From Candidatus Goldiibacteriota bacterium (GTDB lineage: Bacteria; Oederibacteriota; PGYV01; DSYL01): a stretch of 64,000 nucleotides of DNA. Of this stretch, positions 1-46,624 are shown one piece after another. The stretch's first letter is position 1, and each line of letters starts with the position of its first letter. The translations under genes were made by a program, and so were the position numbers. The stretch spans positions 1 through 64,000 of the forward strand of contig JAGNJD010000007.1 of NCBI GenBank assembly GCA_018000835.1. The letters run 5' to 3'. The notes beneath the pieces were generated by a model. That model was not told the DNA's origin. It saw only the letters and a program-made list of their open reading frames with translations, and made no database searches.

Positions 1-273
1 TGTTCAAAATTTCGCTCTACGTTTCGTTTAAACGAGAGATCTTGTCCCGGGTAGATATCTATCTACCCCCGATTTTTAGATTCCACTCTTTTCCCTATCT
101 TTTGTTTTTAATATTTTATTAAGAGCACCCAGCCTATCTTTATTCATTATTTTCAACCTTGCTATGTGTATACCATGTCTATCCTTATTCCCACCTTTTA
201 TATTTTAACCTCTTGTTTTTTAATTTTTTTAAGGGTATAATCAAAAAATAAACATGGTATAAAGGTTAAAAAC
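1..273. other. Leading non-coding region with a palindrome
   Basis: I see no gene here. A perfect inverted repeat (GGGTAGATA, two-base loop, TATCTACCC) spans 49-68, with a smaller palindrome TCGTTTAAACGA just upstream. These may belong to the 3' end of a gene outside the window, but no T-tract follows closely, so a terminator call is not secure. The right end holds the promoter of the DUF502 gene. Confidence 0.4.
213..241 (+). promoter_or_regulatory. Putative sigma-70 promoter of the DUF502-PilZ unit
   Basis: TTGTTT at 213-218 is separated by 17 bases from a perfect TATAAT at 236-241, 32 bases before the ATG at 274. The spacing and -10 box are consensus-like. A weak AAGGTT ribosome site follows. 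Confidence 0.55.
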
Positions 274-1702: not shown

Positions 1703-1786
1703 TTTATACATTGCCGGCTGCTGATTGTGGTTTGACAAAGTTCCATGCGTTCCATATACTTTAATAGTAAAATATTGTTGGAACAG

Positions 1787-1956
1787 CATTAAAAATGTTT
1801 TATTTACTTTGCCAGGAGGGTTCCAGGGGTGCTGTGGAATATCACTGGTATTCCTCGTCCCCTGGTCAATCAACTAAATCCCGTAAAGATAATTTCCACG
1901 GGACAAATTGATTGAATTTTTTGTGGTAGCCTCGGGCTTTAGCCCGAGGGTGTCCA
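1787..1956 (+). repeat. Structured dispersed repeat R1, copy 1
   Basis: About 168 bp that recur in inverted orientation at 46237-46405 with roughly ten differences by eye. The element is made of nested inverted repeats. Arm 1 is CCAGGGG (1823-1829) with CCCCTGG (1859-1865), enclosing GGAATA (1836-1841) with TATTCC (1849-1854). Arm 2 is TCAATCA (1866-1872) with TGATTGA (1909-1915), enclosing CCCGT (1880-1884) with ACGGG (1898-1902). Arm 3 is CCTCGGGCT with AGCCCGAGG (1930-1949). It fills most of the gap between the small protein gene and the convergent PorV gene. No coding function is apparent. Confidence 0.8.
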
Positions 1957-2036
1957 ACTAATAGATAATTAATTCACCGGTATTCTATATTTGTTTCAAT
2001 TTTCCGCTTTTTTATATCGGCAATCTGCAATTGCTT

Positions 2037-22047: not shown

Positions 22048-22249
22048 AATGGAAGGATTGATTGCATTTTTTGAGAAATTCATTGCAATAGGTTATAGGA
22101 AGCAGGATAAGCAAATGTATTACTGTGAGACAAGGATAGAATATAAAACAAAGGATGGAAAGCGTCGCCACACAAAACAGGTAAACGAAAACCTGATTGA
22201 AGTAAGCAAACAATTTATTACGAAAAAAAAATATACCAATCCTTCCATT
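22048..22249. mobile_element. Small inverted-repeat-bounded element, possible MITE or IS remnant
   Basis: A 13-bp perfect inverted repeat, AATGGAAGGATTG at 22048-22060 and CAATCCTTCCATT at 22237-22249, bounds about 200 bp. The element contains most of an 80-codon reading frame and no ACGT tetranucleotide, unlike surrounding host DNA. I could not find a target-site duplication by eye. This could also be a degraded insertion-sequence end. Confidence 0.4.
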
Positions 22250-22291
22250 ATATTTAGCGGACAGCAATGGATTGCTATGGATTTTTCATAA
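22049..22291 (+). CDS. Hypothetical 80-residue protein, possibly mobile-element derived
   Basis: I do not recognise this protein. It is basic, with a coherent composition: IEYKTKDGKRRHTKQVNEN in the middle and SGQQWIAMDF at the end. Its ATG falls inside the left inverted repeat of the small element, and no good ribosome site is visible. Codon choice (AGG, CGT, CGC) and absence of ACGT differ from neighbours. It may be a fragment of a transposase-like or passenger gene, or not expressed at all. Confidence 0.35.
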   Translation: MEGLIAFFEKFIAIGYRKQDKQMYYCETRIEYKTKDGKRRHTKQVNENLIEVSKQFITKKKYTNPSIIFSGQQWIAMDFS

Positions 22292-22334: not shown

Positions 22335-25064
22335 TTACATGACACCGGCTTTTAATATTTTTCTTTCCTGATACCCATCTGCCGTTTTTGCATCAAGGAC
22401 AATGATATAAATGCCCGGCGAAACCATGTTGTTATTATTTGTCTTTAAATCCCATATTACGTATCCGGAATTTAAAGAAGAGTTAATCGTCCTTATAAGT
22501 TCTCCTAAAACGTTAAAAATTTTAAGGTTTACCTGGCCGGATATGCCATAACTCGGATTTGCCTGCCATGGTTTGTATCCAAAATCCCATCTTATTTTAA
22601 GAGTTTGATTGCTATTCATATAATAAGGGTTCGGAACAATGATTACGTCACCAAGAAAAGTTTTTTTCAATCTTAAAATTTCAATCGTTTTTGTAAGCAT
22701 GATGTAACCCGTGCTTAAATCTTTAATGACAACCTGAACTTCATAAACCCCGGGAGATATGATGTTTCCATTATTATTGGTAAAATCCCATCTGATAAAA
22801 TCCAGCGGTGACTCTGAATATTTGATAATAAGCGTGCTTTTTTCGTCGGTTATGCCTGCTATATCCGGTAAATCAATGGAAGCATAAGTCCAGTTTAAAC
22901 TTTGTCCATAAGTCGTACTTGAAAATACAATTTCGCCGGCAGAATTAAAGACGGTTAATCTGACGTATTCCATGTTATTAATAACGCTTACGTCTCTTAT
23001 CGTCGTTTCTTCATGTCCGTATGGGTCCTTTTCGGCTATCTTTAAATAATACACCCCGGATGATACATATTGTCCCTGATTATTTTTTCCATTCCAGGTA
23101 AAAGTTGTTGACCTTTCGTCAAAATTATTATCCGTAATAATGCCGGATAATATTATTTCGAGGACGTCGTTATTTCCTTCGTTAAGTATAATATTTGAAT
23201 TAGCAGTTCCATTTACTTTCATTATTACGTTTTCAAGTGCACCCGTAAACATTTGTTCTGCAATGTTTTTAACGACTTCTCCTGCTTCATTATATAAAGT
23301 TACAATTAATAGATTATAGTAAATAATGGTCGGAGTGCGCGTCAACGTTATTGTCCCTGTTAATGTTATGGTCCACGTTGGCGTGCTTGTCCATGTTGAT
23401 GTGAACGTCCGCGTTGCAGTGAACGTCGGCGTTGCGGTACATGTTGGTGTTGCGGTCCGCGTTGATGTAAACGTCCGCGTTGCAGTGAACGTCGGCGTTG
23501 CGGTCCATGTTGACGTTGCGGTCCGCGTTGATGTGAACGTCCGCGTTGCAGTGAACGTCGGCGTTGCGGTACATGTTGACGTTGCGGTCCGCGTTGATGT
23601 AAACGTCCGCGTTGCAGTGAACGTCGGCGTTGTGGTCCATGTTGATGTGAACGTCCGCGTTGATGTAAACGTCGGCGTTGCAGTCCATGTTGGCGTTGCG
23701 GTTCGCGTTGATGTGAACGTCGGCGTTGCAGTGAACGTTGACGTTGATGTGAACGTCGGCGTTGCAGTGAACGTTGGCGTTGCGGTCCGCGTTGATGTAA
23801 ACGTCGGTGTTGCGGTCCATGTTGGCGTTGCTGTCCGCGTTGATGTGAACGTCGGCGTTGCAGTGAACGTTGGCGTTGCGGTCCGCGTTGATGTAAAGGT
23901 TGGCGTTGCAGTGAACGTTGGCGTTGCAGTTCGCGTTGATGTAAAAGTTGGCGTTGCAGTGAACGTTGGCGTTGCGGTTCGCGTTGATGTAAAAGTTGGC
24001 GTTGACGTCCTTGTTGGAGTACTTGTCCGCGTCGATGTTATCGTCCATGTTGAAGTGAACGTCGGCGTTGTAGTCCCTGTCTGCGTGTTTGTCCGCGTTG
24101 ACGTAAAGGTCGGCGTTGCAGTGAACGTCGGTGTTGCAGTTCGTGTTGCCGTCGGTGTAGGTGTATTTGTTCTTGTTGGCGTATTCGTTGGCGTTGCCGT
24201 CATTGTTGAAGTAAGGGTTAACGTCGGCGTGTTAGTTCTTGTTATTGTTCGTGTCCTCGTTAGCGTTGCCGTCATTGTCCTTGTTAAAGTAAAAGTTCTT
24301 GTAGGAGTTCTTGTTATGGTAAACGTTAAAGTTGGAGAGCATGGAATAAATCTGACGTTGTCAAGATATGCATAAGAAAAATGTAAACGTTCCGCGCATT
24401 TATTTGCCGTAAAAGCAATTGTAACCGACCGTCCAACAAACTGGGTAACGTCAATTAAAATTCTTGTCCATGGCAAAAATTTAAAAGGTCCTCCTGTATC
24501 TACACCTCTTATTGGGTCGCCGTCAATCAGTAAAGGTGCCAACGCAGGATCGCCAAAACTAAATATTTGAGAAAATAGAACCTGGTTGTTATTCGTCATT
24601 ACGTCAAATTCAACGTTTGCATCTATTTGCGGTTCATGACCTTCGGTATGATAACCACTTACAACAAGTGCAAGATATGCTTCCAGGAAACAGGCATCAC
24701 TTGGAATGGTTACTGTTTGTTGTATTCTTGCCCAGTCAACGCGTCCATTTTCACCATAACCAGAAAATAATTTTGCAGAGTAATTGCCTGCATATACCAT
24801 GTTTAAAAAATTTCCGGTATTTGGATTATAAGAATACGGAGCAGTTCCCTGCGTGGTTGCAATGGCATAAGGTAAAGTATCGCCAACACTATTTGTTTGT
24901 AAGTTATTTATATTTACATAATTAATTATAACAGTCCAGCCGTTTAATCCATTTTCAAAATCCCCATTTACAATTCCTGCAGCATTGATTATGGAATTGA
25001 CAAAAACAGCTGTAATAAAGAAAGGTAAAAATTTTGCTCTTTGAAAATTAATGCCTTTGCTCAT
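22335..25064 (-). CDS. Large Thr-rich repeat surface protein with three FlgD-like C-terminal modules
   Basis: A 909-residue secreted protein. After a signal segment (about 10-28) comes a carbohydrate-binding-like module opening with [14 protein letters not shown] (about 30-240). A stalk of about 340 residues follows, made of Thr-rich units such as [16 protein letters not shown] (16 residues), probably extended and O-glycosylated. Three FlgD-like Ig modules follow, each with a 'xNxxGE' strand and GVYYLKI- or SPGIYIIVL-type end: about 590-690, 695-790 and 800-905. The chain ends in [12 protein letters not shown]. The start is supported by GAGGGG upstream. It is probably a cell-surface adhesin or sheath component. 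Confidence 0.85.
23330..24340. repeat. Tandem repeat array encoding the Thr-rich stalk
   Basis: About 1 kb of DNA built from imperfect units with a 6-base sub-period and larger 24- and 48-base periods (for example GTTGCGGTCCGCGTTGATGT on the plus strand). Units at 23410-23640 are nearly identical, which suggests recent slippage or recombination. Because all periods are multiples of three, other frames on both strands stay open without being genes. Confidence 0.85.
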
Positions 25065-44494: not shown

Positions 44495-45268
44495 TTATTT
44501 CCACTGGGCTACAAAATCACCGAATTTCAAGACACGATTTATGTCCCTTTCCGAGAACAAAAATGGCGCAACATCCCTTGAAATAGCCTTCATATCAAGG
44601 TTTTTTGCCTTGGCTATAAGCTTTGCCCTGAGTTCATCCATATCTTTGATGTCTGCTTTTGCCTTTAAAAACTTAAAATCGGGCTTTGAAAATCCGGCTA
44701 GGAACATGACATCATAAAAATCCCTTCCTTTTGCGCGTTTCCTGCCCAGTAAAGCAGTAATTTTCATTGAAAGGAGTGTTGGCAGGGGCGGGACAAGCAT
44801 AGGCGCAAAAACGCCAAGTCTGTTCAATATTTTTTCCTGTGGTTCATACGCGTATTCCTGCGGCTCGTAATCTATCTGTATTATGAGCCTTTCATCCGGA
44901 TGCTGCGAAAGCCCGTATCTGTAATAAACGCCCGGAAACCTCAAAAAACACCTATATGCCGTTTTAAACGACATGTCCACTTTCACATCATATCCTTCCA
45001 GTTTCAGTTTCCTTTCCAGTTCCATGCCCAAACCGCCAAACGATTCTTTGGTTACACCCTTTCCGTCAAAATCCAGATCCTCGGAAAACCTTTCGCTTTC
45101 CCAGCCAAGCCTGACCGCAGTTCCGCCTATGAATCGTAGGTTAAGCCCACGTTTCAGAGGGAATATATACGACAGTATTAGGCACTGCAAATACTCGGAA
45201 AGGATGAGCCGCTTAAAGCCCCGCAGCCTTTCAGGATATTGTGCAAGCAAGCTTTCCATGGGTATCAT
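44495..45268 (-). CDS. AbiEii/AbiGii-family nucleotidyltransferase toxin
   Basis: A 257-residue member of the AbiEii toxin family (nucleotidyltransferase fold). The active-site signature is visible: FIGGTAVRLGW near 46 and FSEDLDFDGKG near 61, giving GG-T and the D-x-D pair. The later segment SMKITALLGRKRAKGRDFYDV near 166-186 (core KRAKGRDFYDV) is also typical. It overlaps its antitoxin gene by four bases. In known AbiE systems the toxin blocks growth on phage infection. GC content and codon use are clearly higher than the host: all three Asp-Val pairs use GAT, against the local rule. Confidence 0.88.
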   Translation of the reverse strand: MIPMESLLAQYPERLRGFKRLILSEYLQCLILSYIFPLKRGLNLRFIGGTAVRLGWESERFSEDLDFDGKGVTKESFGGLGMELERKLKLEGYDVKVDMSFKTAYRCFLRFPGVYYRYGLSQHPDERLIIQIDYEPQEYAYEPQEKILNRLGVFAPMLVPPLPTLLSMKITALLGRKRAKGRDFYDVMFLAGFSKPDFKFLKAKADIKDMDELRAKLIAKAKNLDMKAISRDVAPFLFSERDINRVLKFGDFVAQWK

Positions 45269-45885: not shown

Positions 45886-46624
45886 AATACGTTTTTACGT
45901 GTCTTTTAGAATTATACTAAAATAATCTGATTCTGTCAAGAGATAATATTTTGCGAGTATCCCTAATCCATATATTATATAAGAAGCAAAATTGTTGCTT
46001 ATCTATCCAATCTTGGTCATGGACTATACGCTTATAGATGGGTATATTTAAAGAAAGAAGGTTATAAAGGAATAGGTGTCAGACCTTAAAAATTGACTTT
46101 TTCATTTTTCACCAGCATACTTTTTCCTTCAATTAATTTCAACGCCTTTGCCCTGCTTCCGTCTTTTCCTGCTATACGCGTAACCTCATCATCAAACACA
46201 TCGCACAGCCGTTTCACGAATACAGGTAGTAAAGTGGGACCCCCTCTGGCTAAAGCCCGAGGCTCCCACAAAAAATTCAATCAATTTGTCCCGTGGAAAT
46301 TATCTTTACGGGATTTTGTTGATTGACCAGGGGACGAGGAATACCGGTGATATTCCGCAGCGACCCTGGAACCCTCCTGGCAAAGTAGATAAAACATTTT
46401 TAATGTGTGCATCCTGTGTGCCCCTTATGGCACAAGCAGCATCCCAGTGAAATGACTAAAGTGGCTTATCCCCTATGTTATTATTTTTAACGCCTTCTTT
46501 TAATTTTTTTTGATGTCTTTTTTATAATTTTACGTTTAGGCATTAAAATTTCCTTGTTTTTTTAGTAAAATTAATTAACTAAAATTTATTTTAACAAAAA
46601 AAATAAAATATTTTTTTTAATTTT
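45886..46624. other. Gene-poor flank of the AbiE segment with repeat R1 copy 2
   Basis: No intact gene is visible. The stretch 46086-46230 has a minus-strand open frame (with RLCDVFDDEVTRIAGKDGSR and ending KNEKVNF) that looks like the tail of a degraded protein, possibly from a transposase; its apparent start lies inside repeat R1. GGTGTCAGACC near 46075 is a motif often seen at mobile-element ends. The right end is AT-rich. Confidence 0.45.
46237..46405 (-). repeat. Structured dispersed repeat R1, copy 2
   Basis: Reverse complement of 1787-1956 with roughly ten differences by eye over about 168 bp. The nested arms survive: CCAGGG with CCCTGG enclosing GGAATA with TATTCC, then TCAATCA with TGATTGA enclosing CCCGT with ACGGG. 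The third arm has one mismatch in this copy. It lies on the side of the AbiE segment away from DUF2442. Confidence 0.8.

Follow-up and report, generated by a model that had tools for sequence, protein, structure and literature searches.

The window analyzed here, a stretch of 64,000 nucleotides from a Candidatus Goldiibacteriota contig (JAGNJD010000007.1), contains two copies of a repeat that we call R1. A preliminary description of this DNA had reported two nearly identical inverted copies built from three nested arms. Both observations hold: positions 1787-1959 on the + strand and 46233-46405 on the - strand match over 173 nt with 94% identity, and the three nested arms are present in a sequence that folds far more strongly than its shuffled versions (z-scores of -4.6 and -5.2 for the two strands folded as RNA, and of -5.2 for a full copy folded as DNA). 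The earlier boundaries needed a slight correction, to 1779-1959 (+) and 46233 to about 46412 (-).

Copy 1 (1779-1959, + strand, 181 bp) is preceded by the tetranucleotide TTGT (1775-1778, +; TTGTTGGAACAGCATTAAA at 1775-1793), a variant of the family consensus TTAT on the target side, so that its left junction reads TTGT followed by TGGAACAG. Hairpin D (1823-1865, +) has the arms CCAGGGG...CCCCTGG and an inner arm GGAATA/TATTCC and is indicated by sequence, folds and covariation. The same kinds of evidence (sequence, fold, covariation) define hairpin E (1866-1915, +; TCAATCAA...TTGATTGA), which encloses an optional inner hairpin (1880-1902, +; CCCGT/ACGGG). The 3' hairpin F (1930-1949, +; CCTCGGGC TTTA GCCCGAGG) has GTAG just before it, and the element ends with ACT (1957-1959, +).

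Copy 2 (46233-46412, - strand) has an intact right end (CCCACT); its homology stops past 46412, where the left end and the 5' module have been lost or replaced. Both window copies are thus incomplete, as most complete family members have an extra 5' hairpin module. In copy 1 this A/B module was deleted via a join at CATT, fusing TGGAACAGCATT straight to AAAAATGTTTTA, and one other copy (contig C28, L012) carries the identical deletion. Separately, about 90 bp of the window (100-190) recur nearly identically upstream of a 5'-deleted R1 copy at the start of contig C28 (L012). The reported proximity to an AbiE segment appears incidental: R1 copies are found on dozens of contigs, and copy 2 is about 350 bp away from the nearest gene of the AbiE operon. 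The AbiE neighbor (AbiEii at 44495-45268) appears unrelated to R1.

R1 is a modular repeat family with about 60 copies in the host genome

The count of two is right for the window, and the host genome (2.3 Mb, 74 contigs) holds about 60 copies in total. Similarity search yielded at least 42 matches, the covariance model 59, and blast 60 clusters across the 0.82 Mb of host sequence examined; the core motif, with up to 3 mismatches, was found at 57 sites compared to 0 in the reversed control. Contig ends fall inside several copies, as expected for repeats in a short-read assembly. Both ends are preserved in 38 copies, which measure 181-255 bp except for one 76-bp deletion form; complete copies thus span about 180-255 bp.

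A complete copy begins after TTAT with TGGAACA, followed by stem A (GCATTCA/TGAATGC), which surrounds hairpin B (CCCCAAAC/GTTTGGGG), another hairpin (ATAAAATATCTCA/TGAGATATTTTAT) or both. A linker that contains TTTATCTACTTTGCCARGAGGGTT leads to hairpin D (CCARGG.. / ..CCYTGG), hairpin E (TCAATCAAC/GTTGATTGA) and a T-rich spacer, and the 3' part consists of hairpin F (GTGGGAG CCTCGGGC TTTA GCCCGAGG GGGTCCCAC) and the terminal CACT. The stem A/hairpin B module starts 6-8 nt from the left end, and hairpin F is at most about 10-12 nt away from the right end. Not every copy has hairpins B', D-inner and E-inner; roughly half of the copies in the genome are without E-inner. The tag before hairpin F is GGAG in most copies, GTAG being restricted to copy 1 of the window.

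At 181 nt including the target, L054 is the shortest full form of the host, and its layout is identical to that of copies in G009, a genome from another family within the host's order that contains at least four R1-like copies of the full plan. At one G009 locus (contig C51, L071), hairpin F is enlarged by several near-tandem copies of CCTCGGGCTCCATGA.

Compensatory changes maintain the hairpins

Covariation, which the preliminary description had proposed as a check, is present. We evaluated 46 named pairs in 11 copies from two genomes and found 89% of the cells paired. Ten pairs had changed on both sides, compared to 6.0 in shuffles (6 of 500 shuffles reached this value), and 20 double-change cells were counted, compared to 7.5 ± 2.1 (0 of 500) and clearly above slid controls; these shuffles are uncorrected for relatedness. 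The 5' module alone accounted for 9 double-change cells (3.5 expected from shuffles).

Between lineages, the sequence of stem A differs widely (GCATTCA, GTGTTCA, CGGTTTT, TCCGCC, TGCCGGA, ATGCCA), and its arms pair at 100% within a lineage versus 38% when partners are swapped between lineages. For G021, the arms were taken from a sister copy (L216), as the stem in locus L173 has an extra T. The between-lineage comparison is stronger evidence for covariation than the shuffle test. Covariation is equally compatible with a fold in RNA and with one in a single-stranded DNA intermediate, and does not choose between the two.

In the left module, a symmetric internal loop, GAAAA/ATGAA, is kept while both flanking helices change (e.g., L172:1501-1557, L174:1501-1557, L200:915-971). 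The loop resembles a motif that is bound by a protein or that adopts a non-canonical structure.

Other families of the phylum and Patescibacteria carry relatives of R1

Further copies were also found outside the host. The covariance model matched 10 of 45 genomes of the phylum, with 6 copies in G015 (best E-value 1e-13) and weaker matches in G021, G029, G038, G041, G042, G037 and G018. The relatives share a common plan: a TTAT start, stem A, a 5x5 internal loop, hairpin B and the end TCACT or TTTCAT. The internal loop is GAAAA/ATGAA in most lineages and GAATA/ATGA in Buchananbacteria. Hairpin D (GAGGATTCCAAAGGAGGATACTCC) is almost invariant in most lineages, across two phyla; the copies in G029 are without hairpins D and E. 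Neither a GTAG nor a GGAG tag was present in the relatives from G015, G029 and Buchananbacteria.

Scanning 84,980 genomes for the core pattern of hairpin D returned 25 places, mostly in Candidatus Buchananbacteria RIFCSPHIGHO2_02_FULL_39_17, and also in other Patescibacteria, in G009 and in Firestonebacteria KR_bin-0439, which belongs to the same GTDB phylum as the host. The 1.1-Mb Buchananbacteria genome contains 13 copies of the core and G015 contains 7. No R1 core was found in G001 and G002, the two genomes that belong to the same genus as the window. A pattern match in Acidobacteriaceae (L218) is not surrounded by the R1 layout and was attributed to chance. R1 had no match in Rfam at the gathering or a relaxed threshold, and none was found in phage, plasmid and viral collections. 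The patchy spread of the relatives may reflect horizontal transfer, and their occurrence in two phyla points to either horizontal spread or great age.

R1 inserts precisely downstream of TTAT

Among 47 left junctions, positions -4 to -1 were T in 44, T in 44, A in 44 and T in 46; further upstream, the sequence is only A+T-rich. At the right junction, bias was confined to the first base (T in 48 of 54), with no preference beyond it. Empty sites were sought by fusing the two flanks of every copy and looking for sequences that match the fusion, which yielded unoccupied counterparts. The copy at C72:37460 sits in another repeat, R2, of which more than five distinct unoccupied copies read exactly CTTAT followed by TGCAATG across the junction (AACTTAT followed by TGCAATGAATT in longer context), with no base gained or lost. 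A second unoccupied paralogue, for the copy at C74:1530, likewise revealed no target-site duplication and no loss. Empty and filled sites each have a single TTAT, which therefore belongs to the target and is not duplicated. Because one T is shared at the junction, either TTAT^T or TTATT^ could be the target.

The target-site duplications that the preliminary description had suggested looking for are thus lacking at R1 junctions, unoccupied sites matching base for base. No conserved terminal inverted repeats (TIRs) were found when ends were compared by eye across lineages; a weak likeness of the ends in G000 (TGGAAC/GTCCCA) is not kept in G015 or G029. We conclude that R1 is a mobile element that inserts exactly 3' of TTAT (or TTATT) and leaves the target otherwise unchanged, without duplication. 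Terminator-specific targeting, as known for group IIC introns, was hinted at by a few sites but was rejected, as a terminator-like hairpin precedes 2 of 48 R1 sites versus 35 of 600 control TTATT sites.

Repeat R2 occurs in the window (22049-22291) and at about ten other places of the host (e.g., L003, L005, L013, L015, L039, L042 and L044). It comprises about 190-210 bp between the inverted ends ATGGAAGGATTGATTGCAT and AATCCTTCCAT, and forms an 80-aa frame (MEGLIAFFEKF...) in the window that is broken elsewhere. R1 copies are inserted in R2 at two different TTAT sites. A long degenerate tandem repeat with 12/18/30-base spacing (23269-24375) was also observed in the window, within a 909-aa frame (22335-25064, -). 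In G009, a 319-bp repeat with the ends GTAATAGTTCAGCC and GGCYAAACTATTAC interrupts an R1-like copy (contig C81, L065) and is bordered by an 8-bp duplication (ACTTTACC); several copies of it are present in this genome (also L063, L059 and L126).

Orientation of R1 copies

Of the 55 testable copies, 47 have R1 on the locally G-rich strand (47:8, P = 8e-8), compared to 43% of intergenic TTATT control sites. As 89% of coding bases are on the G-rich strand, the bias is confounded with gene direction and may partly reflect it; within convergent or divergent gaps only, the ratio is 11:5 for the G-rich strand. For IS200/IS605 elements, insertion into the lagging-strand template and copies oriented with replication have been described (PMC5371812; PMC6006769). 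The orientation bias of R1 agrees with such replication-linked insertion, without proving it.

Search for a transposase

A transposase with matching ends, which had been proposed as a further check, was not found. Matches to Y1_Tnp (PF01797) in the host were limited to two fragments, one of them with a stop (assembly 94.5% complete), and G009 had no match (assembly 84% complete). Y1 genes are present in carriers of the phylum and in most Patescibacteria; the patescibacterium G066 carries the R1 core without Y1_Tnp. TnpB (PF07282) was represented by a fragment in G009 and a sub-threshold match in G029 only. The covariance model detected no R1-like ends at 37 Y1 loci and 2 TnpB loci, an absence that is no proof in draft genomes, and a left-module scan, which recovers 5 of 8 positive controls, detected none at the Y1 flanks of the carriers.

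Lone 5' ends considered as candidates for an autonomous copy were a truncated fragment (C21) or chance or degenerate matches. In G001, from which R1 is absent, a 163-aa RAYT-like Y1 gene lies amid GTAG-tagged REPs (GTAGCCGCAAACTTTAGTTTGCGG; contig C119, L104, 1200-2370), and the matches near this gene were identified as REPs of the RAYT locus and not as R1 ends. The 4 nt 5' of the left hairpin foot, the site of known guide sequences, vary between lineages, and TTAT is constant; an alternative guide pairing 3' of stem A was not significant (P = 0.06). A missing partner has precedent, because insertions of palindrome-associated transposable elements (PATEs) took place in Haloquadratum even though one strain has only pseudogenes of the IS200 type (PMC3119063).

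Discussion

The preliminary description had left open whether R1 is a structured RNA, a miniature inverted-repeat element (MITE) or a non-autonomous element. About 60 dispersed copies with sharp boundaries and precise empty sites argue for the last. We propose that R1 is a non-autonomous, non-coding, PATE-like element that is mobilized in trans by an IS200/IS605-type Y1 (HUH) transposase, and give this reading a probability of roughly 0.62. We infer the single-stranded DNA intermediate, the Y1 chemistry and the roles of the individual hairpins. The strand shown would transpose as single-stranded DNA, with the hairpins forming when exposed on the lagging-strand template. The transposase would bind the left module (stem A, the GAAAA/ATGAA internal loop and hairpin B) and the right hairpin, cut 3' of TTAT and at the terminal ...CAC(T), and paste the excised strand behind another TTAT. 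Gain and loss of hairpins nested in loops may have produced the length classes. The main point that this proposal leaves unexplained is the invariance of hairpin D and the internal loop, which would seem to exceed the apparent need of Y1 ends.

R1 could instead represent an undescribed class of gene-less mobile elements in Firestonebacteria-related bacteria and Patescibacteria, whose conserved folded core (the GAAAA/ATGAA loop and the invariant GAGGATTCCAAAGGAGGATACTCC hairpin) would be recognized by another recombinase or a host factor and not by a dedicated Y1 enzyme, possibly with a role at the RNA level. We consider this alternative rather improbable.

It is unlikely that R1 is mainly a structured RNA, i.e., a 3'-UTR or small RNA element spread via RNA, for instance by reverse transcription, with a fold kept for its RNA function. 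The strong fold and the covariation would suit such an element, as would the location of most copies downstream of genes and in the same orientation, and the loop motif and near-invariant hairpin D go beyond the usual needs of transposon ends. However, with TTAT, no duplication and an exact empty site, the junctions are of the kind made by single-strand DNA transposition, and neither an Rfam family nor a conserved neighboring gene was seen.

We also regard it as doubtful that R1 belongs to a GTAG-REP/RAYT system, in which the 3' hairpin would be the REP and a RAYT (TnpA_REP) would move it. Hairpin F is indeed REP-like (GTAG or GGAG before CCTCGGGCTTTAGCCCGAGG, CT at the end), and the REPs flanking the RAYT gene of G001, in the same genus, have an identical TTTA loop. 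But this RAYT-bearing genome contains no R1, most R1 copies carry GGAG and not the GTAG or GTGG expected immediately in front of a REP hairpin, the relatives in three lineages carry neither tag, RAYT loci elsewhere have other flanking repeats, and R1 measures 180-255 bp with a TTAT target compared to REPs of 20-40 bp or REPIN pairs.

A classical MITE of a DDE insertion sequence would likewise be short, multicopy, non-coding and intergenic, but is highly improbable given the lack of target-site duplications and of TIRs common to the lineages and a strict TTAT on one side only; the repeat inserted in R1 on contig C81 of G009, with true TIRs and an 8-bp duplication, provides the contrast. A single recent segmental duplication without wider meaning, to which the 94% identity of the window copies might point, is for practical purposes excluded by some 60 genomic copies with unrelated flanks.

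Returning to the PATE-like element, PATEs are defined by the lack of TIRs, near-terminal palindromes, no target duplication, a length too short for a transposase and a 4-5 bp 5' targeting sequence (PMC3119063). R1 lacks TIRs, has palindromes near both ends and a short fixed 5' target, and makes no duplication. Ends related to an IS605-type transposon, a further PATE criterion, were not found for R1; since no IS605-type locus with R1-like ends was detected, we refer to R1 as PATE-like and not as a PATE. Like the PATEs of Haloquadratum walsbyi (PMC3119063) and a PATE-like element of Halanaerobium (PMC7290912), R1 is non-coding, lacks TIRs and duplications and has palindromes near its ends, and it shares with them the 4-5 nt 5' target, many copies, insertion in other repeats and deletion derivatives. 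Unlike those elements, it has at least four hairpins in a set order that show compensatory changes, an internal loop with a conserved motif and an internal hairpin almost invariant between phyla, and an IS605-type element sharing its ends was not found.

R1 resembles IS200/IS605 elements (IS608, ISDra2) in that it inserts 3' of a constant tetra- or pentanucleotide, has subterminal hairpins and makes no duplication, and possibly also in an orientation bias relative to replication; in contrast to IS608 and ISDra2, R1 has no transposase gene and no recognizable 4-nt guide 5' of the left hairpin, and consists entirely of hairpins. With REP, BIME and REPIN sequences and their RAYT, R1 shares the GTAG or GGAG before the 3' hairpin, the intergenic location and the high copy number, but R1 is longer and asymmetric, with a defined TTAT junction and a distinct left module. 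BOX, ERIC and bcr1 are modular multi-hairpin intergenic repeats with optional inner parts, as is R1, but their reported insertion features differ (TA or TTTAT duplications).

If our reading is right, R1 represents a widespread family of mobile elements of the single-strand type that is, to the extent of our searches, undescribed and that resides in uncultivated bacteria that have received little study. With its ends, target and conserved core delimited, the family is ready for a transposase hunt and a test in a laboratory strain. R1 would also exemplify a repeat whose compensatory changes signal a mobile DNA hairpin and not a functional RNA, which calls for caution in covariation-based RNA discovery.
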